Virus record (IMG/VR): IMGVR_UViG_3300027836_000389
Location: 1-34,849 of that record
DNA from: a virus
Length of the DNA stretch: 34,849 nt
Reading direction: 5' to 3' (one strand)
The translations under genes were made by a program, and so were the position numbers. Under the pieces are notes generated by a model. It ran no database searches and was not told where the DNA came from. It saw only the letters and a list, made by a program, of their open reading frames with translations. Within the stretch, counting starts at the first letter, position 1, and every line of letters starts with the position of its first letter. Below, piece after piece: positions 3,184 through 32,384 of this stretch.

Positions 3184-3212
3184 ATTATATTACTTTTTCT
3201 CTGTAGGGTCAA
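3184..3212 (-). promoter_or_regulatory. Sigma70-type promoter of hsp20
   Basis: TTGACC (3212-3207), 17-base spacer, TATAAT (3189-3184), on the minus strand inside the dnaK 3' end and its stop codon. The expected start near 3177 coincides with the first base of the leader hairpin. Confidence 0.75.
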
Positions 3213-5091
3213 CTTCTGTGAAGCTCGCATCTACAGTATCGCCTTTCTTTTCGGCTTCTTCAGCTTTGGCTTTTTCAGCATTTTGTTTAGCTGTCATAAC
3301 TGGGCCCGACTTTTCAAACAATGTTTGAGTAGCTTTTTGAATAGCCTCGGCATCTTCACTGGTCATTGCAGTTTCAATTTCAGAAACTGCTGTTTCAAAT
3401 GCTGCCTTATCTTCCTCAGTCAGTGTAGCCTTATGCTCCTCAAAGTCTTTCTTAATGCTGTGTACAGCACCTTCAGCTTGATTACGTGCTTCGATTAATT
3501 CTTTGGCTTTTTTATCTGACTCAGCATTTTCTTCAGCTTCTTGTACCATGCGTTGGATTTCAGCTTCAGTAAGTCCACTGTCACTCTTAATAGTGATTTT
3601 GTTTTCCTTACCTGTTGTTTTATCTTTAGCACTGATGTTCATAATACCGTTGGCATCAATATCAAAGGTAACTTCGATTTGTGGCATTCCGCGTGGTGAT
3701 GGGTTAATACCATCTAACTTAAACTCTCCAAGTGTTTTATTGTACTTGAATAGTTCACGTTCGCCTTGTGCTACTTTAATATCAACAGCTGGCTGATTGT
3801 CTTCTGCTGTACTAAATGTTTGACTGGCTTTAGTTGGAATAGTTGTATTCTTTTGAATCAACTTGGTAAACACACCTCCCATTGTTTCAATACCTAGTGA
3901 CAATGGTGTAACGTCTAACAATAGAACGTCAGTCTTATCGCCTGCTAGTACGGCGCCTTGGATTGCAGCACCTGCGGCAACTGCCTCGTCTGGGTTAACA
4001 TCTTTACGTGGTGCTTTGCCAAACAATGCTTCAACTGCTTCTTGTACCTTAGGCATACGTGTTTGTCCGCCAACTAAGATGACTTCGTCAATATCTGCGG
4101 CAGATACTTTAGCGTCCTTCATGGCAACTTTACATGGCTCTATTGAACGCTTGATTAAATCTTCAACCATACCTTCAAATTTAGCACGACTGATAGTTAC
4201 GTTCATGTGCTTTGGGCCGCTTGCGTCTGCTGTGATATAAGGCAAGTTGACGCTAGTACTTGCGGCACTAGACAATTCAATCTTGGCTTTTTCAGCTGAT
4301 TCTTTTAGGCGTTGTAGTGCCAGCATGTCTTTCTTAAGATCGACACCGTTGTCTTTCTTAAACTCGTCTACCAAGTAGTCCATGATGACTTGGTCAAAGT
4401 CTTCACCGCCTAGGAATGTATCTCCATTTGTACTCAACACTTCAATTTGCTTGTCGCCGTCGATGTTGGCAATTTCAATAATGGAAATATCAAATGTACC
4501 ACCACCCAAGTCGTATACAGCAATCTTGCGATCTTTCTTGTCTTGCTTGTCTACACCATATGCTAGTGCGGCCGCTGTCGGTTCGTTGATAATACGTAGA
4601 ACTTCTAGTCCGGCAATACGTCCAGCATCTTTAGTTGCTTGACGTTGACTATCATTGAAGTAAGCAGGTACTGTAATAACAGCCTGTGTTACCGCATGTC
4701 CGAGATAGTCTTCCGCAGTCTTTTTCATTTTGCGCAATACTTCAGCAGACACTTGTTGTGGAGCAAGTTTCTCTCCATTAGCTTCAATCCAAGCATCACC
4801 GTTGTCTGCTTTGACAATGCCGTAAGGCATCAAGTCAATGTCTTTCTGTACTTCTTTCTCGTCAAACTTACGTCCAATAAGACGCTTGCTTGCGTAGATA
4901 GTATTTTTTGGGTTTGTGACTGCTTGTCGTTTTGCTGTTGCGCCAACTAATACTTCGTTGTTAGCATAAGCTACGATTGATGGTGTTGTTCTAGCACCCT
5001 CGCTGTTTTCAATTACTTTAGCAACTCCGTTTTCTAGAATTGCTACACAGCTATTTGTTGTACCTAAATCGATACCGATGATTTTGCTCAT
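3190..5091 (-). CDS. dnaK: Hsp70 chaperone DnaK, full length
   Basis: Full-length bacterial-type DnaK, 633 residues. The ATPase domain has [15 protein letters not shown] (8-22), the phosphate-2 loop [12 protein letters not shown], and the GGEDFD and VGGQTRMP adenosine-pocket segments. The linker [19 protein letters not shown] precedes a complete substrate-binding domain and helical lid, and the tail ends EVDPTEKK. No inactivating change is visible. The start has AAGGAG 6-7 bases upstream. A complete DnaK is unusual in a phage. It may aid virion folding, or act on IscU (also encoded here, with the LPPVK chaperone-recognition motif); both roles are inference. No DnaJ, HscB or GrpE gene is in the window, so host co-chaperones would be needed. 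Confidence 0.97.
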
Positions 5092-5444: not shown

Positions 5445-6029
5445 TTACCTTTGATTTGCAAATGGTGCGATGTAATCGCCATCTTTGGTTGTGCTAGTTC
5501 GCAATGTGTTATATACATTTTGGATGCCAACTGCTTGATTCCAAGCATCTTCTAATGCGTGGTGTGCTGTGACTGGAGGACGTTGTGGGTTGATACCTAA
5601 ATCAAATGCTGTACGTACATCGCGTACTTCCCAAAACTTCCAAGGAATTGCTCGATTGATTTTGCGGAAAACGTGTTCACATATAATAATATCAAATGTA
5701 GAACCGTTTGACCATACACGCTTTGCTCCCCAGCAGAATTTATAAAGACGAGCAAATGCTTCTTCAATGTCTATTCTGTCTTCTGGATCAAAAGCGGCAG
5801 CTTGAGCTTCTTTGCTTTGATTGGCCCACCAAGCGATAGTATCATCGTTAGTAGTTAGTCCAATACGATCACAACTATCTAAGTCTACCTTGCAGTAAAA
5901 ACTATCCATGTCTGGTTCTTTTACTTCAGAACCAAATGGATCAAATTTTACTGCGCCTATTGTTAGGATTGTAGAATCTGGAGTAGTATTAAGTGTCTCC
6001 AAATCTATCATTATGTCTGTTCTAGCCAT
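5445..6029 (-). CDS. DEDDh 3'-5' exonuclease
   Basis: A 194-residue single-domain exonuclease of the DnaQ-like (RNase T) superfamily. Motif Exo I is MIDLET (D9, E11), Exo II is VWSNGSTFD and Exo III is HHALEDAWNQA, giving the DEDDh set (H-x4-D). T4 DexA and related phage exonucleases have this build; whether DNA or RNA is the substrate is not clear. The gene has its own consensus sigma70 promoter with nested inverted repeats, and so probably belongs to the early class. The MazG-like gene follows by 4 bases. Confidence 0.85.
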   Translation of the reverse strand: MARTDIMIDLETLNTTPDSTILTIGAVKFDPFGSEVKEPDMDSFYCKVDLDSCDRIGLTTNDDTIAWWANQSKEAQAAAFDPEDRIDIEEAFARLYKFCWGAKRVWSNGSTFDIIICEHVFRKINRAIPWKFWEVRDVRTAFDLGINPQRPPVTAHHALEDAWNQAVGIQNVYNTLRTSTTKDGDYIAPFANQR

Positions 6030-6316: not shown

Positions 6317-6713
6317 CGTCTTCTTCTTCTTCCGGGTTAAGTAATTGGTCTACAATAAAATCTAAATCCCAAATTCGATTCTTGGAAATTAAATTATATG
6401 GAGTAGTCTCGTCCATAGTTATATAGTGCGAGTTTGGTTGTGCTAACATAAATGTGACAAATTGTTTAGTAATCGGATCACAACTGTCTACATCAATAAT
6501 AACACAATCTACTTGTTGGGCTATACTTAGCATCCAACTAGTATCCGTTTCTTGTTCGTCATATATAAAAACATTTAAATCATCAATGCTTTTACTTAAA
6601 ATGGTTTGAAATTGCTGTTTAACATAAGTAGACGGCTTAACCAATAGATAACTCAAACTCAAATTGAATAGTTTATCCGGTGGCGTGATTACTGTTATTT
6701 TTCCTAAGTTCAT
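6297..6713 (-). CDS. Uncharacterised protein with acidic tail
   Basis: A 138-residue protein not recognised by family. It reads as an alpha/beta fold with alternating hydrophobic strands ([35 protein letters not shown]) and ends in a strongly acidic tail of 15 residues ([11 protein letters not shown]). The strand pattern and DVDSCD resemble a Rossmann or receiver-like fold, but no nucleotide-binding motif is visible. It overlaps both neighbours: 20 bases with bS21 downstream and 41 bases with the -1 frame upstream. Coupling to bS21 suggests joint expression. Confidence 0.7.
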
Positions 6714-7008
6714 AAATCCTACTTACAAAGTATTCTATTTTTTCGGGGGAGTAGTTGGCAAATTTTGGACCACGTAATTTAGTCTCTTCAACAAATTTGA
6801 ATAATTCAGGATCTGTTGCTTTGTCTATTTCTAAATCCGCAAATTGATTTTCTCCGTACAATCTATAAAGCTCGTCTTTAGACTTAATTCCCATTCGTTT
6901 GCTAATGCTTGACCAAATGGTTCCTTCGCCTTGCTCTGCGTTTTGTACGTAGCCTACTCCCTGTTCTTGATCTGTATTTGACCGCCCTGATCCTTGATCA
7001 TGTAAGTC
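6673..7008 (-). CDS. -1 frame extension of the coiled-coil membrane protein (frameshift product)
   Basis: An open frame of 111 codons starts directly at the A9 tract near the end of the membrane-protein gene and continues in the -1 frame to a stop at 6673. Within it the first ATG is at 6894 and has no ribosome site. The 38 codons before it (including VGYVQNAEQGEGTIWSSISK) are open and protein-like, and contain no ATG, GTG or TTG. Slippage at A_AAA_AAG would give a 513-residue fusion (402 + 111). If only the ATG at 6894 is used, the product is 73 residues. Function unknown; the C-terminal part is helical ([18 protein letters not shown]). Confidence 0.6.
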   Translation of the reverse strand, partial: DLHDQGSGRSNTDQEQGVGYVQNAEQGEGTIWSSISKRMGIKSKDELYRLYGENQFADLEIDKATDPELFKFVEETKLRGPKFANYSPEKIEYFVSRIYELRKNNSNHATG

Positions 7009-8213
7009 TTTTTTTTTGAGTCTGCTGTTTCGGGTTCGATAACTTCTGTCAAGTCCGGTTTAATCCGACCTTGGTCAAGAGCTGATTCAGGATGATACTT
7101 ACGTGCTTCTTCCTGGACCAGTTCTCGTTTCTCATCTTCGACAGCCTTTTCAGCTTCTTCGATCATTTTATTCCACTGGTCAATAGAAGTACCTTCTACT
7201 GTTTCCTCCGGCGCTGTTATATCACCTCCTAGTGCAGTCGACAGTGTTGGTGGAATTGTTTCTGTGTGTGTTTCTGCTAGCTGTTCAATTTTCTCAGCTA
7301 GATCAGGTTTAACTGTTTTAACAGCTTGAGCTATTTGATGTAGTTGCTCGTTAGTTAACGGTCCGTCATCCGGTTCGTATTTTGGGTCGTTATCTTTAGG
7401 AATATATTCTTGCGGCTGGGCCACAACATCGTTAATGCTTACAGGTGCTGGCTCGACCTTTTCTTTACGCCAGCCAAATGTCATCTGTGCGGCTAACAAC
7501 ATAATAACTGCTAGCGGATCAAACACTACAATAATTGTAATGATTACCCAAGTAACTGCTTTCTCTAAAAGTGTTTCATCTGTTGCGCCATAAACAAAAG
7601 CCGCAATATATTTTAAGGGGCCAACTTCTGCTTCCACTTTTCTGACTTCAGCACGTATGGGAGCGGCTTGGTCATTGAGTTGAGAAATGTTCTTTTGTTC
7701 CGCAACAATCTCTGCTTGAAGTCTAGCTCTTTCTTTAGCCTGACCTCTGCGTATCGCAACGGCTTTATCGGCACCTTTTTCATCAGCAGAGCGTGCCATA
7801 CTTTGATCGACAGCCTCATCCATTTGTTTAAGTGCTTTACGGTTTGCATCAATATTTTCCTTGCTTGTCTTAATCTTCTCGTCATAGATACTAATACGAC
7901 TTAGGACATCACCTGAGACTAAACTTTGGTCGCTGTGTGCTTTGGAAAGGAAACCAAAGATACCCATTGATGTGATAATCATCAATACAATGACTGCGGT
8001 AGTCATGTAGACTTTCATCAAGCGTGGAGCTTGTTCCCAATTGGCCTTAAGCCATGAGGCACATACTAACTTGGCTACTTCTAAAGCAGAACCCATAACT
8101 ATGATGGGAATAACTGCCGCAGAGAAGATAGCGGCCAAACCTACTACTGAGTAGTAGATTGCGACCGCCGAAATTGTTAAACCAGTTAAGAGTAGTAACC
8201 AGGCTAAAATCAT
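6954..8213 (-). CDS. Membrane protein with coiled coil, zero-frame product
   Basis: A 419-residue membrane protein. Three hydrophobic segments lie at about 1-22, 23-50 and 69-90, then a charged heptad-rich coiled coil at about 95-200, a fourth hydrophobic pair at about 219-246, and a long hydrophilic, Glu/Pro-rich C-terminal region. No enzymatic motif was seen. The architecture suggests a membrane-anchored scaffold or host-envelope protein. Near the 3' end the codons TCA AAA AAA AAG form a slippery site; in the zero frame 17 more codons follow to the stop at 6954. It starts 8 bases after the stop of the upstream gene. Confidence 0.8.
   Translation of the reverse strand: MILAWLLLLTGLTISAVAIYYSVVGLAAIFSAAVIPIIVMGSALEVAKLVCASWLKANWEQAPRLMKVYMTTAVIVLMIITSMGIFGFLSKAHSDQSLVSGDVLSRISIYDEKIKTSKENIDANRKALKQMDEAVDQSMARSADEKGADKAVAIRRGQAKERARLQAEIVAEQKNISQLNDQAAPIRAEVRKVEAEVGPLKYIAAFVYGATDETLLEKAVTWVIITIIVVFDPLAVIMLLAAQMTFGWRKEKVEPAPVSINDVVAQPQEYIPKDNDPKYEPDDGPLTNEQLHQIAQAVKTVKPDLAEKIEQLAETHTETIPPTLSTALGGDITAPEETVEGTSIDQWNKMIEEAEKAVEDEKRELVQEEARKYHPESALDQGRIKPDLTEVIEPETADSKKKTYMIKDQGGQIQIKNRE
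7008..7018 (-). other. Slippery A9 tract, candidate -1 frameshift or transcriptional slippage site
   Basis: Minus-strand TCAAAAAAAAAG reads tcA AAA AAA AAG in the zero frame, containing A_AAA_AAG (the dnaX-type heptamer). Seven bases downstream TGATC-AAG-GATCA can form a small 5-bp stem. The identical 12-mer occurs at the end of the gene at 22404. Confidence 0.6.
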
Positions 8214-9290: not shown

Positions 9291-9821
9291 CTAGTTATAA
9301 AAAATATGACGGCCAATTTTTGCCACGGGCGGCTTACCCCATTTTGGATTAACATAATCGCCATGGAAATATAAAGCATTTTTAATTGATGGTAATCTAA
9401 ATCCTTCTAGTAGAACCTTTTTGGCTACTTCCATTGATTCAGTATACACCGGGCCGTTCATTGGCTTTTTAAGCGAAGCTGAACTACAATACCAACTGAA
9501 TTGGCAAAGTACCTTTTCGTACACTACATTCTTTTGATATACTACTTGGCAGATATCTGATGGAAATTCTCCACTCTCTGCCCTGTTGATTGTAACTTGT
9601 GCCACTGCGACCTTGCCTTCAAAAGGTTCGCCACCGGCTTCATGGTATATGTTACGAGCTAGACAGTCTAGTTGTTTCTGTCTTAATTGTGCTGTAACTG
9701 GGCTCGCTTGTTCGCGAACTGATTTAAGGGTTTCCAGTTTATAATTAACTGCCTTATACCCTGCTGTTGTAACTACTAGTATTGCTAGTAAAAACATTAC
9801 TATTTTGATAATGCGTATCAT
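9291..9821 (-). CDS. SleB/CwlJ-type cell wall hydrolase, signal-anchored endolysin
   Basis: A 176-residue Hydrolase_2 (SleB/CwlJ) domain protein. The core reads CLARNIYHEAGGEPFEGKVA (catalytic Glu candidate E61), VAQVTINRAESGEFPSDICQ, CQFSWYC and a C-terminal YFHGDYVNPKW with IGRHIFYN. This family cleaves peptidoglycan. Residues 5-24 form a single hydrophobic N-terminal segment without a clear signal-peptidase site, which fits a signal-arrest-release endolysin. AAAGGAG precedes the ATG. The holin candidate follows by 8 bases. Confidence 0.88.
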   Translation of the reverse strand: MIRIIKIVMFLLAILVVTTAGYKAVNYKLETLKSVREQASPVTAQLRQKQLDCLARNIYHEAGGEPFEGKVAVAQVTINRAESGEFPSDICQVVYQKNVVYEKVLCQFSWYCSSASLKKPMNGPVYTESMEVAKKVLLEGFRLPSIKNALYFHGDYVNPKWGKPPVAKIGRHIFYN

Positions 9822-11824: not shown

Positions 11825-12666
11825 CCCGGAGTCTCAAAAGAATTTTTATGTATTACTGTTAATGTGTCCGAGTCGTATGATTTACCAATCATTGCTAAGA
11901 TTACAGCTTTACATATTATCCCCGACCAATCATCAATCAGTTGTTCGTTCTTAATATAGATTTGGATGTTAGCATCCTGTTCGCTAGCATACCAAGGTTT
12001 AAGTAAACTAATGTTAGAAAAAATGCTAAAGGAAGAACTAATCACTCGTCTGTAGATAAAGTATTGCCACTTTGTTATGTTAGGCTTAACTGATACAACA
12101 TCGAGATTAACGTGTGGAATTATCGAACCGTGATCCGCCACTAGTTCAATCTCCATATCATCCTTACGTGCTAGCAACTCGTCTTGAGTAACTACTTTCA
12201 TGGCTTTCATAAAATCAAACTCAGCGCCACCTGTGTTAAAATATAAACATTTCACATCCAATGTTTCTTGAAATAGTTTTATAACACGATTGCGTATTGA
12301 TCCAGGATGTACTACTTGTTGTTGTATTCTGGGATTATAATGAACTGCTAACGGATGCTTGAATCCATATTTAAAAAATGAATCAACTAGCCAACATACT
12401 TTAGGAAAGGTACGATGAATCAACTCAACAGGCAAATGCTCGTTAAGATGTTGTTTGCTTCGAAAGTATTTGTTAATTGGATCTAGTAAAGGATCAGAAG
12501 TGTTTAATACTAATTGAGTTTTATCAATGTTGCCCAGATATAAATTCTCTGTAGGGCGTTTGTATTTGTAAAAAAAATCTATCCTTTCAGTAGTACCAAA
12601 AATAGGAATAGTTTCAAGATGAAACGGAACCTTATCTGGTAATGTGTAAGGATAGAAATTTCTCAT
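11821..12666 (-). CDS. Uncharacterised protein coupled to the glycosyltransferase
   Basis: A 281-residue soluble protein with no recognised domain. Noticeable segments are ERIDFFYKYKRPTENLYLG, VHPGSIRNRVIKLF and a C-terminal VILAMIGKSYDSDTLTVIHK. The four-base overlap with the glycosyltransferase gene suggests the two act together, perhaps in sugar-nucleotide or acceptor handling. It begins 7 bases after the histone H1-like gene. Confidence 0.7.
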   Translation of the reverse strand: MRNFYPYTLPDKVPFHLETIPIFGTTERIDFFYKYKRPTENLYLGNIDKTQLVLNTSDPLLDPINKYFRSKQHLNEHLPVELIHRTFPKVCWLVDSFFKYGFKHPLAVHYNPRIQQQVVHPGSIRNRVIKLFQETLDVKCLYFNTGGAEFDFMKAMKVVTQDELLARKDDMEIELVADHGSIIPHVNLDVVSVKPNITKWQYFIYRRVISSSFSIFSNISLLKPWYASEQDANIQIYIKNEQLIDDWSGIICKAVILAMIGKSYDSDTLTVIHKNSFETPG

Positions 12667-15662: not shown

Positions 15663-16319
15663 TTAATATTTTCCTGATGCAAGTACTATCTTGCAAATAT
15701 GTTCTAATCTTTCTATATGCTCGTATGCTCGCCATGGAGTGTTGCCAATGGCTACTACGCCGTGTCCTTTGATTCCTACTATGTCAAACTTGATGTTGCC
15801 TTCACGATCCAGCCCTAAATTGCGATGACACGCTTCGCCTAATTCTTCGCTGATAGGAGCAACATCACCTACGTTATGTGCCACCTTGGTATAACGATTG
15901 AGTTCAGGAAAACTATCACTAACAGTTGCTAGATCAATGCCGGCATGCATAGCCGCAATACAGTAAGTTGGATGAACGTGTACAACTACACGCACATCAT
16001 CCTTATGTTGGCCCAATTCTTTTTGTAGGCCAAAGTGTAAGGGCATTTCGCCGCTAGGTTCCAAGTTGCCCGACAAGTCTGTTTGTTCAATGACTTCCCA
16101 AGTATAGTTAAAAGCACTACTGCCCACACCACTGTTAATGCTTCTCCAGATTTTAATCTTCTTGAACATCTCTGGTTGCATGTTTTGTTTACGCACACCA
16201 CTAGGTGTTACATAAAAATGATCACGGTCGTGATGTCGAATAGAAATGTTACCATCTCTACTGGTAATCCAATTACGCTTATAAGCGTCTACTAATATAT
16301 CGCAACAAGTTTCTAACAT
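15663..16319 (-). CDS. Class II aldolase/adducin-family protein
   Basis: A 218-residue zinc-dependent class II aldolase family protein (fuculose-phosphate aldolase or methylthioribulose-phosphate dehydratase type). The metal-binding HVHPTY, the distal GHGVVAIG and EHIERLEHICKI, a Glu in PSGEMPLHF and the N-terminal DGNISIR are all family features. It sits between nrdA and nrdB with a 1-base overlap (TAATG) to nrdA. The substrate is not predictable; a link to sugar phosphate or deoxynucleotide-derived metabolites is only inference from position. Confidence 0.85.
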   Translation of the reverse strand: MLETCCDILVDAYKRNWITSRDGNISIRHHDRDHFYVTPSGVRKQNMQPEMFKKIKIWRSINSGVGSSAFNYTWEVIEQTDLSGNLEPSGEMPLHFGLQKELGQHKDDVRVVVHVHPTYCIAAMHAGIDLATVSDSFPELNRYTKVAHNVGDVAPISEELGEACHRNLGLDREGNIKFDIVGIKGHGVVAIGNTPWRAYEHIERLEHICKIVLASGKY

Positions 16320-18640
16320 TATAGTTTACACGACTCGCAATCGTCCTCATTATCAAAATCTATTACTTCTAACATAGCAGGTGCTTCCTCTGCTTTCATC
16401 TTACTGCCTGCTTTATTAATCAAACTGTAGTAGAATGTTTTCAATCCCCACATGTGTGCTTGCATTAAATTCTTAGCAATTAATGTAGTTGGAACTTTAC
16501 GATCCGCAAAATGTGCTGGATTGTAAAATGTATTAGTGCTAATCGATTGGTCAGTATAGGCCGCAATAACTGCCGCTGTCTTGATGTAACCTTCACAGTC
16601 TTTCTGTTCCCACATCAGTTGATACTTGTTCTTCAACTTGTGATATTCAGGTACAACTTGTACAAACGATCCTGCTTTGCTTTCCTTAACTGAGATAAGC
16701 GACATAGGCATCTCAATGCCATTGGTACTATTGATGACTACACTACTTGATTCAACAGGAGCAACCGCTCCGTTAGTAGCATTGCGTACTCCATATGTAA
16801 TCATTTCCTTACGTAGTGCTTCCCAGTCTAATTCAGGAGCAAAGTTTGCTAATTCGTTCACACCTTTAGCACGTAGTTCCCAAGGAAATACACCTTGGCC
16901 GTAACGTGTTTGATCGCTGCCTAAACACTTGCCACGTTCCTTGGCTAGTTCAACTGACATCTCTGTAAGGTAAAAACTTTGATGTTCTTGCCAGCTTTTA
17001 ACTTCAGCTAGCGCATCCTTATCTCCATACTTGAGGCCACGCTTGGCGTGCCAGTATGCTAAGTTAGTAATACCAATGCCCAGTGGACGAATTTCGTCGT
17101 TGCTTAGTTTAGATTGGATAGAAAGAAAATCTTGGTAATCAAGAATATTGTTAAGACTGCGGTGAAGGATACGGCAAGCCCTACGCATGTCTTCTGGGTT
17201 ACGGAAAGCTCCCCAGTTGATGCTACCAAGTGTACATAAAGCGATACGACCATCGGGATCGTCGAGACGCTTAAAAGACTTAGTAGGTAAAAGTATTTCA
17301 CAGCAAAGGTTACTCTGATAAATGGTATGGTATTCTGGGTCGAACGGACCCTGGTTCATCACGTTGTCAATGAACACTAGATAGATGCGTCCTGTATCAG
17401 TACGCTCTTTCAATATGCCTGACTTGAATACTTCTTCAGCTGACATTGTCTTTGTACGCAAATCTTTACGTTTTTCGTATTTTACATACAGCTCTTCGAA
17501 CAAGGCCGTATTTTTATAGAAGGCTTCATACAAGTCAGGAACTTCGTTAGGATCAAAGAACGTTATGTCTTCCTTGTTCTTGAAACGTCTCCAAAAGAAT
17601 GCCGACAGTACGACTCCATAGTCCATGTGGCGGACTCTTGTTTCCTCTGTTCCTTGATTATTCTTGAGAACAATAAGATCATCAAACTGGTGATGCCAAA
17701 TAGGATAAAACACAGTAGCACTAGCATTACGAATGCCTCCTTGTGAACAACTACGTAAATCGCCAAACCATTTCTTCAAGAAAGGAATCATGCCAGTGTG
17801 CATGATCTCTCCGCCACGTATTGGACTGCCGAGCGGGCGGAGGCGACCAATTTCTAAACCGATGCCAGCACGTTTGCTCGCATACTTGGCCATCATCTCT
17901 CCAGAAGCAAATATGCTATCCAGATCGTCGTCACTGCGGATAAGCACACAACTAGAAAACTGTTTAGTAGGAGTGCCAAGCCCAGCCAACACAGGTGTAG
18001 CAAGAGTAAACAGGCCATCGGATGCCGCGTTATAGTATTCTTTAATGTAACGCATTCTTGCACTATTCGGTTCTTCTTTATGGAAGACAGTTGCTGCCGC
18101 AACCATGTATCTAATTTGTGGAGTTTCATAAGTTTCTTTTGTCGCTCTATTTTTAACAAGGTACTTCTCAATTAACTGCTCAATAGCCGCATAACTATAC
18201 TGTTCATCTTTTTCATGATCCAGCATGTCATTCATTTTGTTCCAATCTTCTTCAGTATACCACTCTAACAGTTCACTAGTATATAAACCAGTAGCAACAT
18301 TTTTTTGTATGATTTCATAAAGATGGGGAACTTTGTAGTCTCCGTACACATCTTTTCTTAGCATACTCAATCGCTGTTTACCCGCTACATATTGATAGTT
18401 AGTGTGCCCAACGTCTGGATTATTTTCAACGTCAATTAAATCTACTATAGCACGTAAAGTTATACTGTCAATTTCTTGTGTGGTGATGCCGTCATAGAAG
18501 TGTGGCTGGCTTTTGATTTCAATCATAGACTGACTAACGTCAGCTATACCACTACACACCTTTGCAATCTGCGCTTGCCACTTTTCTACCGCTAGTAATT
18601 CTTTTTTTCCTGATCTTTTTATAACTGTAATATTGTTCAT
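16319..18640 (-). CDS. nrdA: Class Ia ribonucleotide reductase alpha subunit NrdA
   Basis: A 773-residue catalytic subunit reducing ribonucleoside diphosphates. An N-terminal ATP-cone-like region spans about 1-90 (VIKRSGKKE onwards). The active-site segments are QFSSCVLI and NLCCEILLPT, with a Cys in each, and there is a GSINWGAF segment. The C-terminus DDCESCKL carries the swinging redox pair. Together with NrdB and glutaredoxin it makes a complete class Ia system for dNTP synthesis. The gene starts about 165 bases after a sigma70-type promoter. Confidence 0.97.
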   Translation of the reverse strand: MNNITVIKRSGKKELLAVEKWQAQIAKVCSGIADVSQSMIEIKSQPHFYDGITTQEIDSITLRAIVDLIDVENNPDVGHTNYQYVAGKQRLSMLRKDVYGDYKVPHLYEIIQKNVATGLYTSELLEWYTEEDWNKMNDMLDHEKDEQYSYAAIEQLIEKYLVKNRATKETYETPQIRYMVAAATVFHKEEPNSARMRYIKEYYNAASDGLFTLATPVLAGLGTPTKQFSSCVLIRSDDDLDSIFASGEMMAKYASKRAGIGLEIGRLRPLGSPIRGGEIMHTGMIPFLKKWFGDLRSCSQGGIRNASATVFYPIWHHQFDDLIVLKNNQGTEETRVRHMDYGVVLSAFFWRRFKNKEDITFFDPNEVPDLYEAFYKNTALFEELYVKYEKRKDLRTKTMSAEEVFKSGILKERTDTGRIYLVFIDNVMNQGPFDPEYHTIYQSNLCCEILLPTKSFKRLDDPDGRIALCTLGSINWGAFRNPEDMRRACRILHRSLNNILDYQDFLSIQSKLSNDEIRPLGIGITNLAYWHAKRGLKYGDKDALAEVKSWQEHQSFYLTEMSVELAKERGKCLGSDQTRYGQGVFPWELRAKGVNELANFAPELDWEALRKEMITYGVRNATNGAVAPVESSSVVINSTNGIEMPMSLISVKESKAGSFVQVVPEYHKLKNKYQLMWEQKDCEGYIKTAAVIAAYTDQSISTNTFYNPAHFADRKVPTTLIAKNLMQAHMWGLKTFYYSLINKAGSKMKAEEAPAMLEVIDFDNEDDCESCKL

Positions 18641-18865: not shown

Positions 18866-21304
18866 TTATAATATTGCGGTATATGAGTAGGTAAACGTAC
18901 CGGTATCTGTACTCAGCGATGTTGCTGAGAATGTGATTGCGCCAGTAGTGTGAGCAGACGATGCTCTTATAGTAATTTGGCTAACACTATCTACGCTATA
19001 AATTATAGCACCAGTACCAAAGCTACCAACGTTAGTACCAGTTTCTGTTAATACCTGTCCAGCGGCTAAACTACTAACAGATGGCATTCCAGTGACAGTA
19101 CTTTGGTAGAAGTTTCCAGATACACCTGCGGCAGATATAGTTCCCGACTTGCCTGTGTATGTGGTTGTTCCTAACGATAGTGTATTAGAATATCTTAAAG
19201 CAACCGAATAAGGAGTATCGCCGGAGCCAGTAAATTCAGATCCAGTTTCGTTTAATAGTGCTACTGTTAAGTCTAACTTTAAAGAATCTTCTTCACCGAG
19301 CCCAGCTATATTATAATCGTCGCTTAGTTGTGCTACTGTAGTGCCTTCGGCAATACTAGCATCAACGTCCACTATTAATGTTAGTGTTCCTCTACGGCTG
19401 AAATCAAACACATTACTTTTATAAACATAGTTAAGTTGGTAGCTAATTGATCTGCTTGGGTTTCCGTTAGGCCCAGTTGATATTGGTAATATTGCCAGCA
19501 ACGATGGACTTGTAATGTATCCGATTAGTACTGGACGAGTACCGTATGATGTATAGGTAACATAACCGGCAACTTCTGGAATATACGGCACCATAGTTAA
19601 GGTGCCAACTAAGGTTGGGTGCGATGTTGCTCTAAACGAAGCTGTCATAGTCCCACTTGAAACTGTTAGTGGGCGTTGACTGCCGCCTAATGAATTAGCA
19701 ATTGAAAAATGTGTGCTGTCGCTAATGTTTTGTACATAATAAGTTGTACTAGCTACTACACCACCTAATGTACTTTGGAAACTAATAGCACTACCAATAG
19801 TTAATTCGTCTGTAGTATCGCTTGTTACAAATTCAGTCGTGCTCGAATCAGTAATAGTAATGGTTGTGACATCGCCAGGAGTTAAACTAGTACCAATATT
19901 TAAATTACTAAAATTATTAAAAGGAGTTGTATAACGTGTTACAACTGTAATACTAGTAGCAGAGTCATAATCTTGTTTTAATGTACCTTGGACATTAGAT
20001 GTGCTTTGAATTACTAAATCGCCTTTGCTGGCTGTAATAGGTGCGCTCAGGGTTAAGTCAACTGTGTAAGATAACGCTGATAGTGCGCTTTCTCTATCGG
20101 ACTGATCATTTTGACTAGTGTTACCTGGAGCATCAAAGAATATCTGCGGGTACTCAGCAAAGAATACGCCAGAACCGTTGTTGCCCACGTTAACTAGTTT
20201 GCAATCTCTAGTCATGTTGCCAGTTCCACGTTCTACATAGACGGCATGACGTTTTACATCATCAAACTTACAACGCATAATTTGTGTTTCACGTGGGCCA
20301 TACTGTTCGCCTACGGTGTTACCATCTGCTGTTTCGCCTAAGACAAAACCTTGGCGTACATCTCTAATATAGCAATCTGAAAAAGCATTATTGATAATGT
20401 CATGTTTAGAATATACGGCGTAACTAAATCCAGAAATATAAATGTTGTTAAACACATTGTCGCTACAGGTTACTAATGCCGATACTGCTTCTAAGCTAAT
20501 GGCTATACTGTTGGCATTATAAGTTCCGCCCCAGTCTCCCGCGATTACTAAATCATCAAAATAGCTATTACGAACTGCGTCAAGTTTTAACGCAGTCTGA
20601 TTAACAGTATTAGCTTGGATTGTAAATCCTTTTAATATAATATGTCTAGGTTGTGTGTTTGCTAATGTGTTGTCGACAGTACTTGGATTACCAATAGTAC
20701 TAGTATCATTAATAAATCGGATTGCTGGGCCAACGCCTGTGTAAGAAATAATAGTTTTATCAGATCCAGCGCCTACGATTGTAGCAAAGCTAGGAATGTA
20801 TAAAGTATTAGTTGTTTTATAAACGCCTGGAGCAAGCTCTAATATGATACGAGTTTGTTTGCCATCGGCAGTGTCAGCAGACGCTTTTGTTGTAGGATTT
20901 AAAAATAGTTGATCTATTGCCCGTTGTAGTGCCGCGGTATCGTCTATCACGCCGTTGGCAGTTGTTCCGAAGTCTGCGCCTGTTACACGGTCGTCTAGTC
21001 GATCCTGTGTGCGTCTTGAAACAGGACTGTTTGGTGTTGGGCCTGTTTGAATTCCAGGATCGTCTGTTTTATAGGTATGCTGAATTAACGCAAGTAAGTT
21101 ACCTTGAACTGTTAAGTCTCGCTCTGTTAGTACCTTAGTATTGCCTACAGCAGGAGAACCTTCTGAGACAGAACCGTTACCAATAAATAATTCTTGGGTA
21201 TCTAGCGACCATGCTAACTCGCCCGAAGCTAGCTGGGGTAAACCTGTTCCAGCAAGTGATTTTCCTCTGCGTACCTGAATACGGCTAATTTGCACTACGG
21301 CCAT
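18866..21304 (-). CDS. Tailspike/tail fibre with pectate-lyase-type beta-helix
   Basis: An 812-residue receptor-binding protein candidate. The N-terminal 1-65 region (ISRIQVRRGKSLAGTG, ASGELAWSLDTQELFIGNG) is the virion-anchoring module seen in many phage fibres. RVTGADFGTTANGVIDDTAA (about 87-106) starts a Pectate_lyase_3-type right-handed beta-helix, with repeated short strands to about residue 390. The C-terminal half is Thr/Ser-rich beta repeats (TSDTTDELTIGSA and similar). It may cleave or bind host surface polysaccharide; specificity is unknown. A late box GATAAATA and AGAGGAT precede it. Confidence 0.85.
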   Translation of the reverse strand: MAVVQISRIQVRRGKSLAGTGLPQLASGELAWSLDTQELFIGNGSVSEGSPAVGNTKVLTERDLTVQGNLLALIQHTYKTDDPGIQTGPTPNSPVSRRTQDRLDDRVTGADFGTTANGVIDDTAALQRAIDQLFLNPTTKASADTADGKQTRIILELAPGVYKTTNTLYIPSFATIVGAGSDKTIISYTGVGPAIRFINDTSTIGNPSTVDNTLANTQPRHIILKGFTIQANTVNQTALKLDAVRNSYFDDLVIAGDWGGTYNANSIAISLEAVSALVTCSDNVFNNIYISGFSYAVYSKHDIINNAFSDCYIRDVRQGFVLGETADGNTVGEQYGPRETQIMRCKFDDVKRHAVYVERGTGNMTRDCKLVNVGNNGSGVFFAEYPQIFFDAPGNTSQNDQSDRESALSALSYTVDLTLSAPITASKGDLVIQSTSNVQGTLKQDYDSATSITVVTRYTTPFNNFSNLNIGTSLTPGDVTTITITDSSTTEFVTSDTTDELTIGSAISFQSTLGGVVASTTYYVQNISDSTHFSIANSLGGSQRPLTVSSGTMTASFRATSHPTLVGTLTMVPYIPEVAGYVTYTSYGTRPVLIGYITSPSLLAILPISTGPNGNPSRSISYQLNYVYKSNVFDFSRRGTLTLIVDVDASIAEGTTVAQLSDDYNIAGLGEEDSLKLDLTVALLNETGSEFTGSGDTPYSVALRYSNTLSLGTTTYTGKSGTISAAGVSGNFYQSTVTGMPSVSSLAAGQVLTETGTNVGSFGTGAIIYSVDSVSQITIRASSAHTTGAITFSATSLSTDTGTFTYSYTAIL

Positions 21305-21324: not shown

Positions 21325-21332
21325 TATTTATC
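21325..21332 (-). promoter_or_regulatory. Late promoter box GATAAATA of the tailspike gene
   Basis: GATAAATA 20 bases before the ATG at 21304, with AGAGGAT between, matching the layout of the other late genes. It overlaps the stop of the nuclease gene. Confidence 0.65.
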
Positions 21333-22050
21333 AGTTTTGATTGTAGTACTGTTCCACTCTATTCCACCACTGTTTTTCCCAGTAGTCAAACTTGTCCGGA
21401 GTAAGGATAAACTCTTGATACGCTGGATCTCCCCAAGTCATTGTTTTACCAATTTCAGGAGGTTTTACACACATAAACACAACACCTTTACGAATGTCTG
21501 TTCCATGTACTTTGTTATGTGCTAGAGCATAGGCTACCATTTGTAAGTAGTAGTCTTCAATCCACTCATCTTTCTTGGGCTTGTTTGTTTGCTTATGGTC
21601 CATGATTGCGCCGTCACCTAAGTGTACTCCTACACAATCAGTAGTTCCCGCATATAGTTCAGGATAGTATAACCCAACTTCTACACCCCACACTTCGTCA
21701 ACGTTTTTAAGTCCGTGTTCGATAATATGCTTGGCCATCTTGTGGCTTTGTATACTGTAGGGATTTGAACCAGGGTCGTTTAGTGTGCCTTGTACAATGT
21801 AATCTTCCAAGTACTTGTGCATTCTTGTGCCACGACTTGCGGCCTCTGTAACAATCTCAGTAGCTTTCTTTTCACCTACAGCTCTGCGCCATGCTTGTAG
21901 TGCGGCAACTTTTTCTGCTGGTTTAGTTTTGTCTAGGATTGTTGTAACGGATGGCAGTTTGTTGCCGTCGGGTGTTGCGTATAAACGCTTGCCATCTACA
22001 CTTGCCCTGTCTAAAGGAGTGTAGTCATATCTTTCGATTAATAGAGTCAT
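21331..22050 (-). CDS. RecB/Cas4-like PD-(D/E)XK nuclease
   Basis: A 239-residue nuclease of the PD-(D/E)XK superfamily (RecB/Cas4/MGME1-like). The motifs are in order: LPSVTTILDKTKP, GTRMHKYLEDYI (helix with conserved H), ELYAGTTDCVGV (Asp), AIMDHKQTNK (D-x-K) and DYYLQMVAYALAHN (motif with Q). Likely role is exonuclease in phage DNA processing or host DNA breakdown. The ATG at 22050 is used because the promoter would start transcription there; a longer ATG at 22068 lies inside the promoter. Confidence 0.85.
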   Translation of the reverse strand: MTLLIERYDYTPLDRASVDGKRLYATPDGNKLPSVTTILDKTKPAEKVAALQAWRRAVGEKKATEIVTEAASRGTRMHKYLEDYIVQGTLNDPGSNPYSIQSHKMAKHIIEHGLKNVDEVWGVEVGLYYPELYAGTTDCVGVHLGDGAIMDHKQTNKPKKDEWIEDYYLQMVAYALAHNKVHGTDIRKGVVFMCVKPPEIGKTMTWGDPAYQEFILTPDKFDYWEKQWWNRVEQYYNQN

Positions 22051-22077
22051 AGGACAAGTATATAACACTTGCCCTAT
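22049..22077 (-). repeat. Inverted repeat overlapping the nuclease promoter and start codon
   Basis: Eleven-base arms ATAGGGCAAGT and ACTTGTCCTAT (one mismatch, G-T) with a 7-base loop. It covers the -10 and +1 region and the ATG, so it is a good operator candidate. Confidence 0.6.
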
Positions 22078-22092: not shown

Positions 22093-22407
22093 TTAAGCCA
22101 AATCGCCTCGTTTGGTGGCGCTCATTGCCATTTTACTAACTTCACTTGGAGCCGTGTCATTTTCTTGGCCTGGTTGAGAATCTTGAGTGCGTAGTGTTAA
22201 ACCACCGCCATCAAATTTTTGAACTAATTGTTTTAGGATTGGGCCTTCTTGTTCGCTATCCCAACGAGCGGCGAACGCATCATAAGAAATTGGGACGCCC
22301 ATATTGCTAAGGGCATCCCATGTTAGTGGACCTGTACTGTGTTTTGCTTTTGCTGTAAACTGAGAACTTCTTAAGAGCCTAATTAAAGGATCAATAGTTT
22401 CTATTAC
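22093..22407 (-). CDS. -1 frame extension of the late protein at 22404 (frameshift product)
   Basis: An open frame of 104 codons begins at the A9 tract that ends the upstream gene and continues in the -1 frame to a stop at 22093. The only ATG (22302) is 35 codons in and has no ribosome site, yet the codons before it (VIETIDPLIRLLRSSQFTAK and on) read as normal protein with no ATG, GTG or TTG start. Slippage on AAA AAG just before the TAA would give a 437-residue fusion. Using only ATG 22302 gives a 69-residue product. The tail is Gly/Gln-rich and hydrophilic. Confidence 0.6.
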   Translation of the reverse strand, partial: VIETIDPLIRLLRSSQFTAKAKHSTGPLTWDALSNMGVPISYDAFAARWDSEQEGPILKQLVQKFDGGGLTLRTQDSQPGQENDTAPSEVSKMAMSATKRGDLA

Positions 22408-23405
22408 TTTTTTTTTGATGCTAACAACATGCCTAACTTGCGGCTGTAATCAACGCTTTCACGTTTCTCACGACCTATTTCGGCTGCTGGCGGCACTGGT
22501 TCTTCTGCTGGTAATCCAGCTGTTGGTGGAGCCATTGCGCCTAATTCTACGCCCATGTCTTCTGCGCCTGCGTCCATTCCACCCATTGCGCCACCTGGTG
22601 CGCCCATTGTGTCCGGTGCTTTACCAGATACAATGCCTAGAGCGTTTGATAAACCGCCACGGGCTTGTTCTAGTGTTGTATAAACTGATTCCAATGCTGG
22701 CTTAACGGCGTCAACGTACTGTTGAGCAACATCGCTGCCTTGTGTTTCTCTTATAGAGTCTTGTAATTCCAAGAGTTGTTCTGCCTTCATAGCGGCAACA
22801 TCTTCTAACCAACCAGTGATACGGTCAACCATATCCTTAGTTGCCATGATTGTTTCGGCTTTGTCTTCTTCGCCTTCTAATAACATCCAGCTGGCTTGTG
22901 ATTCATTTAAGTCATAACGAATTTGTAATTCTGCCTTTAATTCTTCACGGTCTACACCTTCGCCTAAATTGATTTGAGCAATGGTTTTATTGATCCAGCT
23001 TTCTGGAACTGATAATTGTCGAGCACGATTACGTACTGTATTAACAATATAACCTTCGTCTGTTTTTTCTTTTTTCATATCTTTAGAGGCCTTTTTCATA
23101 TCTTCTTCTTCATCACCGTCATCGTCGATATCGGCAAAGTCAGGCTTGGCATCTTCACGTTCCATGATCTCTTGATTGATACAATCAAGCATTAAACGTG
23201 TCTTTTGATAAGTTGGGCTTTCAAGTACAGAATCATAACTCTCTGATAGCTCCAACTGGCTTAGTTTAGTGCGTAGCTTGTTACGAGCATCTTCTAATTG
23301 GACGTCGTTGAACTGTTTGAAGTTGATGGTATATCCAAACTTCTTAGCTAGGCTTTCATTAAGCTGTTTGCTTGTTACGGGTTTTGAAAATTCTCTAATT
23401 TGCAT
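22404..23405 (-). CDS. Late internal/scaffold-type protein with targeting-like N-terminus
   Basis: A 333-residue zero-frame protein. The N-terminus MQIREFSKPVTSKQLNES has a prohead-protease-like site LNE|S. An acidic stretch (DIDDDGDEEED, about 94-105) and long helices with Glu/Lys follow, then a Gly/Met/Ala/Pro-rich region (about 265-310) and SRKLGMLLASKKK at the end. The helical, acidic, low-complexity build resembles head scaffold or internal core proteins; that is inference. Consensus late promoter TATAAATA and AGGAAAG precede it. The last codons are a slippery site followed at once by TAA. Confidence 0.75.
   Translation of the reverse strand: MQIREFSKPVTSKQLNESLAKKFGYTINFKQFNDVQLEDARNKLRTKLSQLELSESYDSVLESPTYQKTRLMLDCINQEIMEREDAKPDFADIDDDGDEEEDMKKASKDMKKEKTDEGYIVNTVRNRARQLSVPESWINKTIAQINLGEGVDREELKAELQIRYDLNESQASWMLLEGEEDKAETIMATKDMVDRITGWLEDVAAMKAEQLLELQDSIRETQGSDVAQQYVDAVKPALESVYTTLEQARGGLSNALGIVSGKAPDTMGAPGGAMGGMDAGAEDMGVELGAMAPPTAGLPAEEPVPPAAEIGREKRESVDYSRKLGMLLASKKK
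22407..22417 (-). other. Slippery A9 tract, second copy, directly before a stop codon
   Basis: Minus-strand TCAAAAAAAAAG followed by TAATAG: tcA AAA AAA AAG TAA. It is the same 12-mer as at 7008-7018, again with a start-less frame open in -1. AATAG-AAA-CTATT can form a small stem just downstream. Confidence 0.6.
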
Positions 23406-30158: not shown

Positions 30159-30184
30159 AAAAAAGGACCTCTGGGTCCTTTTTT
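30159..30184. terminator. Bidirectional intrinsic terminator
   Basis: AAAAAAGGACC / GGTCCTTTTTT with a TCTG loop, flanked by A and T runs. It lies between convergent genes and serves both strands. Confidence 0.9.
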
Positions 30185-30595
30185 TTATGATATGCTTTCT
30201 TTGCCAAACATGTCTGGAAACGCTTTTCCAAAGTTCCGCATAATAACTGCGGCTCTAGCATTAGCATCATTCTCTTGCGGTGATCCTGTAGACCCTGCTT
30301 CGTCGTCTTCTAGCTCGTTGTCTAAGTCTTGTTTGTAATGAACAAGCTCGTGTGCTAGTGTGCGGCACACATCCATAATGTGACGATTGGTAACTGTAAT
30401 AGTAATGTGTTCGTTGCCTGGTTGGTATCCGCCAAAGCTTCTACGTTCCATAGACTCCTTGCTATCAAATACAAAGTCAAACTTAGGCAAGCTCTTTAGC
30501 TCTAAGTCCTTGGCAGCAAAACGGATAAAGTCCAATAGTATTGGATAGGTATCCTTCTTTTCTAAGCCTTCAGTTAGTAATTCACGGACTTTCAT
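30185..30595 (-). CDS. HExxH zinc protease-like protein with capsid-targeting-like N-terminus
   Basis: A 136-residue putative gluzincin. VCRTLAHELVHYKQD contains HELVH (82-86), and E108-N-D-A-N-A-R-A gives the downstream Glu typical of ImmA/M48-like zincins. The N-terminus MKVRELLTEGLE has LTE|G, a near-ideal T4 prohead-protease site preceded by a T4-like targeting peptide. Thus it may be packaged and injected, then act on host proteins; that role is inference. The start overlaps the preceding stop (ATGA). Confidence 0.8.
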   Translation of the reverse strand: MKVRELLTEGLEKKDTYPILLDFIRFAAKDLELKSLPKFDFVFDSKESMERRSFGGYQPGNEHITITVTNRHIMDVCRTLAHELVHYKQDLDNELEDDEAGSTGSPQENDANARAAVIMRNFGKAFPDMFGKESIS

Positions 30596-31037: not shown

Positions 31038-32384
31038 TTATCTCTGTTCAATCCAACTTAGACTGGCCACGGCTTTTTTGTTGGCATTTTTAGCGGCTAT
31101 GGCGATTGTTACGGTATCGCTGACTGTGCCCATACTGCCTCGTCCTAACTGTAGATCTGCGTCTTTACTCAGTTCAACTCTAACGGCAGCGCCAGCAGTG
31201 ATGAATCCAGAGTCAATTTGATTGCCGTCTGTGACAGCACCTGTTGAAGTGTAGTTGTATTGTGTAAATGCGTTGGCATCTGGCATGTCTGTCCAAGTAC
31301 CGTTGAGTGTAGCGTTGCGTAGAACTTTATAATAGATGTCAGTGTTGTCCAGTGTGTTGGCTATAAAGTTTGACAGTAGAATAATACCTTCTAGAGCAGT
31401 GGGTTTCATACGCACACTGACCACAGGATAAAATGTCAATGCTGTATCTAATGTGATACCAGTCAGCGGAGTCAATATGTTTGACGGGATGCCCTGCTTG
31501 ACCAATCGTCCTTCTACTAACAAACTGTTTGATCCTTGATATAAATGATGTGTGCCTGCGGCACCACCAAAGTTTTCAAGTTCTAGTCTAATGGGTAAGA
31601 ATGGAGTTCTGCTCCACGGCAATAACAATATATTGCCAGTGTTGAATGTGTGTATGACACGGGGCAATCCGTTCATAATGAAACTGAATGATATCTGTCC
31701 TGCGCCGTACCATTCGTAATCCATGGATATCATCTGCTGTGCTAACGGATTTGCTGTGAAGCCGCTAGGGCCAGTGCCGTCAAGTTTATCACCATTCCAG
31801 TTATTGCGAGTAACCCTTTGTGTAGTTTGTACTCCTGATGCTGTACTAGTTAGTACAACAGCATATTCTGGTTGTCCATTAGCATCTAGTGTGCCGCTGT
31901 CTTCAAAATAAAATCCATCCGAGCCGTTAAACAGACCAAATCTACGACGAACTCCTACTACAGGCATTTCTAATCTAACTGAGAAAGTCAGTGTGTTCTG
32001 ACGGCCTGAAGTATATCGCATAACTTGTCTGGTTTGTCTTACAACTTTAGAACCCAGGGTAGATGTTACGGACATATCAACAAGACCTTGATTGGTGTTG
32101 AATGAAGCTGATGCTCCGTTAGCAGTGGTCTCATCCCACACATCAGTTTCCTTACCGTATTGGAATGTGTTAAAGAATAATGACTCTTGTGTTTGTACTT
32201 TTAGACGACCCTTGCTGTCTATACTGGAACTAACTCCAGAACCTTCTCCCGATCCTACTAGGTTAACATTGGCACGAAGCACTGGTTGGCCAACATTATT
32301 GTACTCCATCGCATTGTGTAAGTCTAATAAATTAGGCTCATGTGAATGCTGGTAGTTGGTTGAATTAGGTAGTTGTACGCCCAT
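31038..32384 (-). CDS. Virion fibre or baseplate-associated protein
   Basis: A 448-residue beta-rich protein. N-terminal HSHEPNLLDLHNAMEYNNVG, then a lectin-like region at about 75-300 (TFSVRLEMPVVGVRRRFGLF, GFYFEDSG, ISFSFIMNGLPRVIHTF) reminiscent of concanavalin-like sandwich domains, and a second beta region to the end. No enzyme motif. It follows the PA14/GLEYA-like fibre gene by 6 bases, so both probably belong to one adhesion structure. Confidence 0.7.
   Translation of the reverse strand: MGVQLPNSTNYQHSHEPNLLDLHNAMEYNNVGQPVLRANVNLVGSGEGSGVSSSIDSKGRLKVQTQESLFFNTFQYGKETDVWDETTANGASASFNTNQGLVDMSVTSTLGSKVVRQTRQVMRYTSGRQNTLTFSVRLEMPVVGVRRRFGLFNGSDGFYFEDSGTLDANGQPEYAVVLTSTASGVQTTQRVTRNNWNGDKLDGTGPSGFTANPLAQQMISMDYEWYGAGQISFSFIMNGLPRVIHTFNTGNILLLPWSRTPFLPIRLELENFGGAAGTHHLYQGSNSLLVEGRLVKQGIPSNILTPLTGITLDTALTFYPVVSVRMKPTALEGIILLSNFIANTLDNTDIYYKVLRNATLNGTWTDMPDANAFTQYNYTSTGAVTDGNQIDSGFITAGAAVRVELSKDADLQLGRGSMGTVSDTVTIAIAAKNANKKAVASLSWIEQR

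Follow-up and report, generated by a model that had tools for sequence, protein, structure and literature searches.

Two genes on one strand of a 34,849-nt virus sequence (positions 1 to 34,849 of IMG/VR record IMGVR_UViG_3300027836_000389; hereafter the window) contain the same 12-mer, TCAAAAAAAAAG, at a point where the frame being read could be exchanged for an open -1 frame. The question raised by this locus is whether the copy at the end of the first of them (gene 1) is a site of recoding that produces a short and a long protein, a strategy shared with the other gene (gene 2), or whether both junctions reflect a common type of sequencing error. Judged by its conservation among relatives, the gene 1 tract is a genuine recoding site of deep conservation and belongs to an already known type of signal. 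We consider it likely that gene 1 is a programmed -1 recoding gene, in which ribosomal slippage yields a 437-aa minority fusion, and that gene 2 probably relies more on slippage by RNA polymerase.

The layout of the locus agrees with the original prediction (Table 1). The frame-0 product of gene 1 reads SKKK up to TAATAG, and the -1 frame continues from KKK for 104 residues to a stop at 22093, with 35 protein-like codons ahead of its first ATG. Site 2, in gene 2, reads TCA AAA AAA AAG ACT; here frame 0 continues for 17 codons before its stop, and the -1 frame stays open for 111. A search of the window returned exactly two copies of the 12-mer, and the only other A or T runs of at least eight are two of length 8 (12570-12577 and 30179-30186), in line with the earlier statement that no other run is as long.

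Table 1. Coordinates of features at the two slippery sites and of neighboring genes in the window.
Feature	Position	Strand	Description
Gene 1, overall	22093-23405	minus	Short form plus -1-frame C-part
Gene 1 short form, frame 0	22404..23405	minus	333-aa all-helical virion-type protein (AlphaFold, phrog_14154); ends SKKK-TAA
Slippery site 1	22407..22418	minus	TCA AAA AAA AAG; overlapping heptamers A_AAA_AAA and A_AAA_AAG
Frame-0 stop TAA	22404..22406	minus	Directly 3' of slippery site 1
3' stem-loop position conserved in relatives	22362..22395	minus	Starts 11 nt past the slippery site; window copy degenerate, weak
Gene 1 C-part, -1 frame	22093..22407	minus	104 aa, VIETIDPL...KRGDLA; predicted fusion 437 aa
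Exonuclease (phrog_298)	21331..22068	minus	Synteny marker; next gene 3' of gene 1, an arrangement shared by PA5oct and SCTP-2
Pectate-lyase-like tail fibre/spike	18866..21304	minus	Mtd_N-like start; synteny marker
Ribonucleotide reductase large subunit	16319..18640	minus	Synteny marker
Gene 2 short form	6954..8213	minus	419 aa; N-terminal hydrophobic segments, coiled coil, acidic tail; frame-0 tail TYMIKDQGGQIQIKNRE
Slippery site 2	7008..7019	minus	Same 12-mer as site 1
Gene 2 C-part, -1 frame	6673..7008	minus	111 aa, DLHDQG...YVQNAEQ...NNSNHATG

By count alone, two A9 tracts are not surprising given the composition of the window: a dinucleotide model predicts about 1.7 A runs of at least 9 on its two strands, and 23 of 100 shuffles contained the 12-mer, with at most one mismatch, two or more times. 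The feature is significant because it is conserved, not because of the number of tracts. Among relatives, A runs of at least 9 are nearly absent away from the two sites; 23 of the 27 such tracts in 12 related records (2.04 Mb) lie at these sites, and 10 of the 12 records have them nowhere else.

Three scans of viral contigs, together with a pattern search of the 12 large records, gave 87 distinct gene 1 loci with N-part identities from about 72% down to about 32%. An A9 or A10 tract in the same phase is present in 86 of them, as TCA9G (58), CCA9G (12), TCA10T (8), TCA9C (6), or CCA10T (2); in the A9C and A10T forms the final base is substituted, with no indel. In all 86 loci the slippery heptamer lies in frame-0 phase (A_AAA_AAA and A_AAA_AAG/A/C), TAA follows immediately 3' of the tract, and the -1 frame remains open for 101-153 codons past it. 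The A preceding AAA AAA is likewise invariant (TCA or CCA), even where Ser is replaced by Pro, and both overlapping heptamers are thereby kept; TCA accounts for 67% of TCN codons in gene 1. The sole exception (L376) has no tract: its N-terminal reading frame ends in ATGA, whose ATG opens the C-part as a gene of its own. As a separate observation, one 85.9-kb record (G009, the source of L038/L099) carries gene 1 slippery sites at 6994 (+) and 54498 (-), and these opposite orientations reflect either two gene copies or a chimeric assembly.

Purifying selection acts right after the gene 1 tract in the -1 frame only. Over the first 20 codons, dN/dS in this frame is 0.31 and no stops are met, compared with 0.97 and 2.02 and hundreds of stops when the same DNA is read in the two other frames; for codons 20-60 of the -1 frame the value is 0.19. 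The first ATG of this frame is scattered between codons 1 and 107, no in-frame ATG position is conserved, and in some loci 80 or more codons pass without an ATG; internal initiation therefore cannot serve as the general route. At gene 2, selection on the 16-codon overlap mainly maintains the short frame-0 tail (dN/dS 0.18), and past the overlap it maintains the -1-frame protein (0.31).

The two sites differ in the RNA that follows them. Against a null of protein-preserving synonymous codon resampling, the 54 nt 3' of site 1 have a mean z of -3.15, with 78% of loci below -1.64, and the effect wanes farther 3' (mean z -0.89 at 60 nt and -0.40 at 120 nt). At site 2, no excess 3' stability was found relative to the synonymous null (z +0.79). 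The proposal of a shared strategy therefore holds for the 12-mer and the direction of the shift, which are common to both sites, but not for 3' RNA structure, which is found only at gene 1; the two sites may thus use different machinery, the ribosome in one case and RNA polymerase in the other. The window's own gene 1 stem-loop is weak (z -0.38), as it is in its nearest kin, and the 14 of 86 loci with z above -1 are mainly the window, close kin, and part of the CCA group. The window may therefore rely on a weaker or different stimulator.

RNAalifold on the pooled gene 1 hairpins returned no common structure because stem sequences are quite different in some lineages, while the position of the stem is roughly constant. 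We instead counted pairs at the common stem position, alongside the synonymous-codon nulls. There, 73% of cells are paired, compared with 28-47% when the partners are slid and 66% on average (69% maximum) when the 3' letters are shuffled across the sequences; 49 cells have changes on both sides, compared with an average of 20 and a maximum of 34 in 300 shuffles. The spacer between site 1 and the common stem is 11-14 nt in 56 of 69 loci and reaches 23 nt, exceeding the 5-9 nt that are usual, although not strictly defining, for -1 frameshift sites. No convincing Shine-Dalgarno-like stimulator was found upstream of site 1 among the 86 loci; AGG stands at -18 or -21 in 60 of them, and is also explained by the encoded Leu-Gly. 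Overall, gene 1 combines the heptamer in phase, the conserved -1 protein, and the 3' RNA structure across relatives that characterize -1 programmed ribosomal frameshifting.

Gene 2 shows dual-frame coding at a conserved site 2 in 82 distinct loci, and the same 12-mer would there give a short and a long form, each with its own conserved tail. Its tract varies from A8 to A11 among relatives, with only A8 in five loci. In four lineages (L101-103, L114/L282, L318, and L287), few as these cases are, the frames are swapped: the long frame is encoded in phase, and an A9 or A10 tract is retained together with a short tail in the +1 frame that stops 17-18 codons on. Swapped phase is seen in 5 of 87 gene 2 loci and 0 of 86 gene 1 loci (Fisher p 0.06), a contrast that is suggestive only. 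Some gene 2 relatives have one extra A and an in-frame fusion, and L344 encodes an in-frame 523-aa fusion with a YVQNEEQ motif and no A tract; in this lineage, recoding would have been lost or never gained and the long form would still be made. According to the original prediction, a fused gene without an A tract among relatives would speak against recoding. This was never seen for gene 1, whereas for gene 2 it occurs in at least one lineage, L344. At the level of sequence, such in-frame fusions are evidence that the long form is a real product and no refutation of recoding in other lineages. The features of the gene 2 protein given in Table 1 were judged from sequence; the gene lies three genes downstream of a cell-wall hydrolase (9291-9821), and its homologue in Pelagibacter phage Mosig adjoins a putative glucosaminidase.

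Conservation in 86 distinct loci for gene 1 and 82 for gene 2 gives strong support to recoding with short and long forms. The alternative of a sequencing or assembly error, or of a population polymorphism, in which a true A10 was read as A9, could appeal to the error-prone nature of homopolymers and to the origin of the window in a metagenome assembly. It is contradicted by the many separate metagenome assemblies in which A9G, A9C, and A10T, differing by a last-base substitution, keep one phase, by the TAA that comes next in all 86 gene 1 loci, and by the selected RNA structure, and we give it practically no weight. Replication slippage that toggles the fusion on and off at the DNA level is scarcely more credible: homopolymers can vary, and the gene 2 relatives with an extra A and an in-frame fusion would fit, but such a switch would give a mixture of phases, and gene 1 has one phase in 86 of 86 distinct loci. 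That the C-part is a separate gene, expressed from its own internal start by reinitiation or coupling, is what SCTP-2, PA5oct, and L376 suggest, where the downstream protein has its own start codon beside the upstream stop. For the A9 clade, however, we consider this very improbable, as selection preserves the protein encoded between the stop and any start (dN/dS 0.31), start positions are not conserved, and the slippery phase never varies.

Transcriptional slippage at both sites, with the polymerase adding or dropping an A on A9 so that mixed mRNA encodes both forms, has more in its favor, although we still think it unlikely. A9 is long enough for RNA-polymerase slippage, the fixed A before AAA AAA (TCA/CCA/CTA) holds the tract at 9 or more at both sites, and there is a precedent in Citrobacter rodentium tssM, where A11 is followed by a stop (PMC4256274). 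However, A9 also makes two overlapping ribosomal heptamers, so its length does not discriminate, and five gene 2 loci have only A8. The absence of swapped phase at gene 1 also speaks against the polymerase there, as does the selected 3' stem-loop, a ribosomal rather than a polymerase feature; together with the phase-locked A_AAA_AAA/A_AAA_AAG, this stem-loop points to -1 ribosomal frameshifting. Gene 2 is different in this respect: a homopolymer of A8-A11 without detected ribosomal stimulators is what characterizes transcriptional slippage, and the lack of 3' structure, the tolerance of tract length, and the four swapped lineages that keep the homopolymer and both tails all fit it. In our preferred reading of gene 1, most ribosomes would halt at the TAA after SKKK and release the 333-aa helical virion-type protein. 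Some would shift back by a single base at the lysine codons (A_AAA_AAA / A_AAA_AAG), aided in most lineages by the stem-loop about 11-14 nt downstream, and would append the 104-aa C-terminal domain. That the slip occurs in the ribosome rather than in RNA polymerase, its efficiency, and the presence of both forms in the virion are what we infer from these patterns. More tentatively, one 12-mer could be read by two machines, namely ribosomes with a 3' stem-loop in the virion gene and RNA polymerase without a stem-loop in the membrane/coiled-coil gene, with recoding at gene 1 having replaced an ancestral separate pair.

Gene 1 most likely encodes a virion protein and a minority form with a C-terminal domain, the expression of which we infer. 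The AlphaFold model of the N-part is all helix (mean pLDDT 75), and residues 171-267 only match phrog_14154, "virion structural protein" (E 2.2e-8); the N-part profile had no match among PDB chains. For the C-part, a small alpha/beta domain, fold searches yielded nothing significant in the PDB (best E 1.9) and no more than borderline viral hits. With P0001 and P0002, tblastn returned no match in 50,697 phage records, and none was found in GTDB genomes. Pseudomonas jumbo phage PA5oct (Arenbergviridae) shows the gene order of the window: past the structural genes EST35_0237, 0238, and 0239 come an exonuclease, a further structural protein, and ribonucleotide reductase. The N-part profile detects EST35_0237 (E 2.3e-7), and both this protein and EST35_0238 are annotated as structural by ESI-MS/MS in the PA5oct record. 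The match of EST35_0238 (104 aa) to the C-part is collinear but weak (E 0.0065); it is a probable homologue, weak by profile alone and argued partly from gene order. SCTP-2 gp7 is not significantly similar to the C-part profile (E 0.25) but clearly matches EST35_0238 (E 1e-11), through which alone it is tied to the C-part. Most simply, recoding in the window's clade would have joined two neighboring virion-protein genes. A prohead scaffold gp22, suggested by the helical fold, was rejected: such a scaffold gene sits between portal gp20 and capsid gp23, and the T4-type portal and capsid genes of large relatives (G001 and G002) are, by contig coordinates, over 200 kb away from gene 1. A tail assembly chaperone G/GT was also rejected, as the neighbors of gene 1 are an exonuclease, a tail fibre, and ribonucleotide reductase, not major tail or tape-measure genes.

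The window's phages are an uncultured T4-related family, often very large; genomes carrying the two sites span 100-370 kb, with several over 200 kb. In one relative (L060:14475-17768), the gene for the ribonucleotide reductase large subunit is in two pieces, reading frames of 509 aa and 320 aa separated by one of 258 aa, and the insertion resembles an intron or intein that carries an endonuclease of its own. Elsewhere in the window are a 633-aa protein matching phrog_22485 (3190-5091, E 4e-271), an Rv2179c-like 3'-5' exoribonuclease (5445-6029, E 1e-38), and a virion structural protein (phrog_1645, 31038-32384) with about 53% identity to Synechococcus/Prochlorococcus phages and 60% to the 54.8-kb podovirus MW202701.

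These results add a deeply conserved recoding gene pair to the large T4-related phages. The pair stands out because both genes use one 12-mer and because some relatives have split or fused versions instead. Standard gene prediction would cut gene 1 off at the A tract and gene 2 shortly past it, so that about 100 residues of each protein would be missed or appear as a short gene of their own. The relatives form a natural series of separate genes, recoded fusion, and in-frame fusion that bears on why two forms are kept, and identical slip sites with and without a stem-loop could help tell ribosomal from polymerase slippage.

A literature search (open-licence papers) found no published description of these two sites, and among the closest counterparts of gene 1 are EST35_0237/0238 of PA5oct and gp8/gp7 of Salicola phage SCTP-2. 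They share the order protein, small protein, exonuclease (PA5oct also the structural protein and ribonucleotide reductase, as in the window) and a central helical domain homologous to gene 1 (E 2.3e-7 and 5.7e-7, respectively). Unlike gene 1, however, they have no A tract, and the two parts are separate genes. Frameshifts that add C-terminal extensions have been reviewed for T7 10A/10B, T3, Listeria A118/A500/PSA, and Lactobacillus A2 (PMC5009743). As proposed for gene 1, the slip in these capsid and tail genes lies near the end of a structural gene and gives a minority form with a C-terminal domain, and A2 and PSA have two such genes each, a likeness to the pair of slip sites described here. 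The T7, T3, Listeria, and A2 proteins have no detected similarity to gene 1, whose site is distinguished by A9 with an immediate TAA and by sister phages (PA5oct and SCTP-2) that encode the extension separately.

The gpG/gpGT system of lambda and other long-tailed phages likewise uses a conserved slip to make a short protein and a C-domain fusion in a ratio. However, the gene 1 N-part is 333 aa, with no lambda-like major tail or tape-measure neighbors seen, and gpG/gpGT are absent from mature virions (PMC5009743), whereas the PA5oct counterparts of gene 1 are annotated virion proteins; T4 itself lacks G-T frameshifting (PMC5009743). With the A_AAA_AAG -1 frameshifting of E. coli dnaX and IS-type elements, gene 1 shares the slippery heptamer and 3' stem-loop, but it has a longer spacer, no clear upstream Shine-Dalgarno, and an immediate stop codon. 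In C. rodentium tssM, a poly-A tract also lies beside a stop, and both forms and their ratio matter; its tract is A11 rather than A9, and it is reported without the 3' stem-loop signal that is selected at gene 1 (PMC4256274). By analogy, tssM would be a good model for gene 2.
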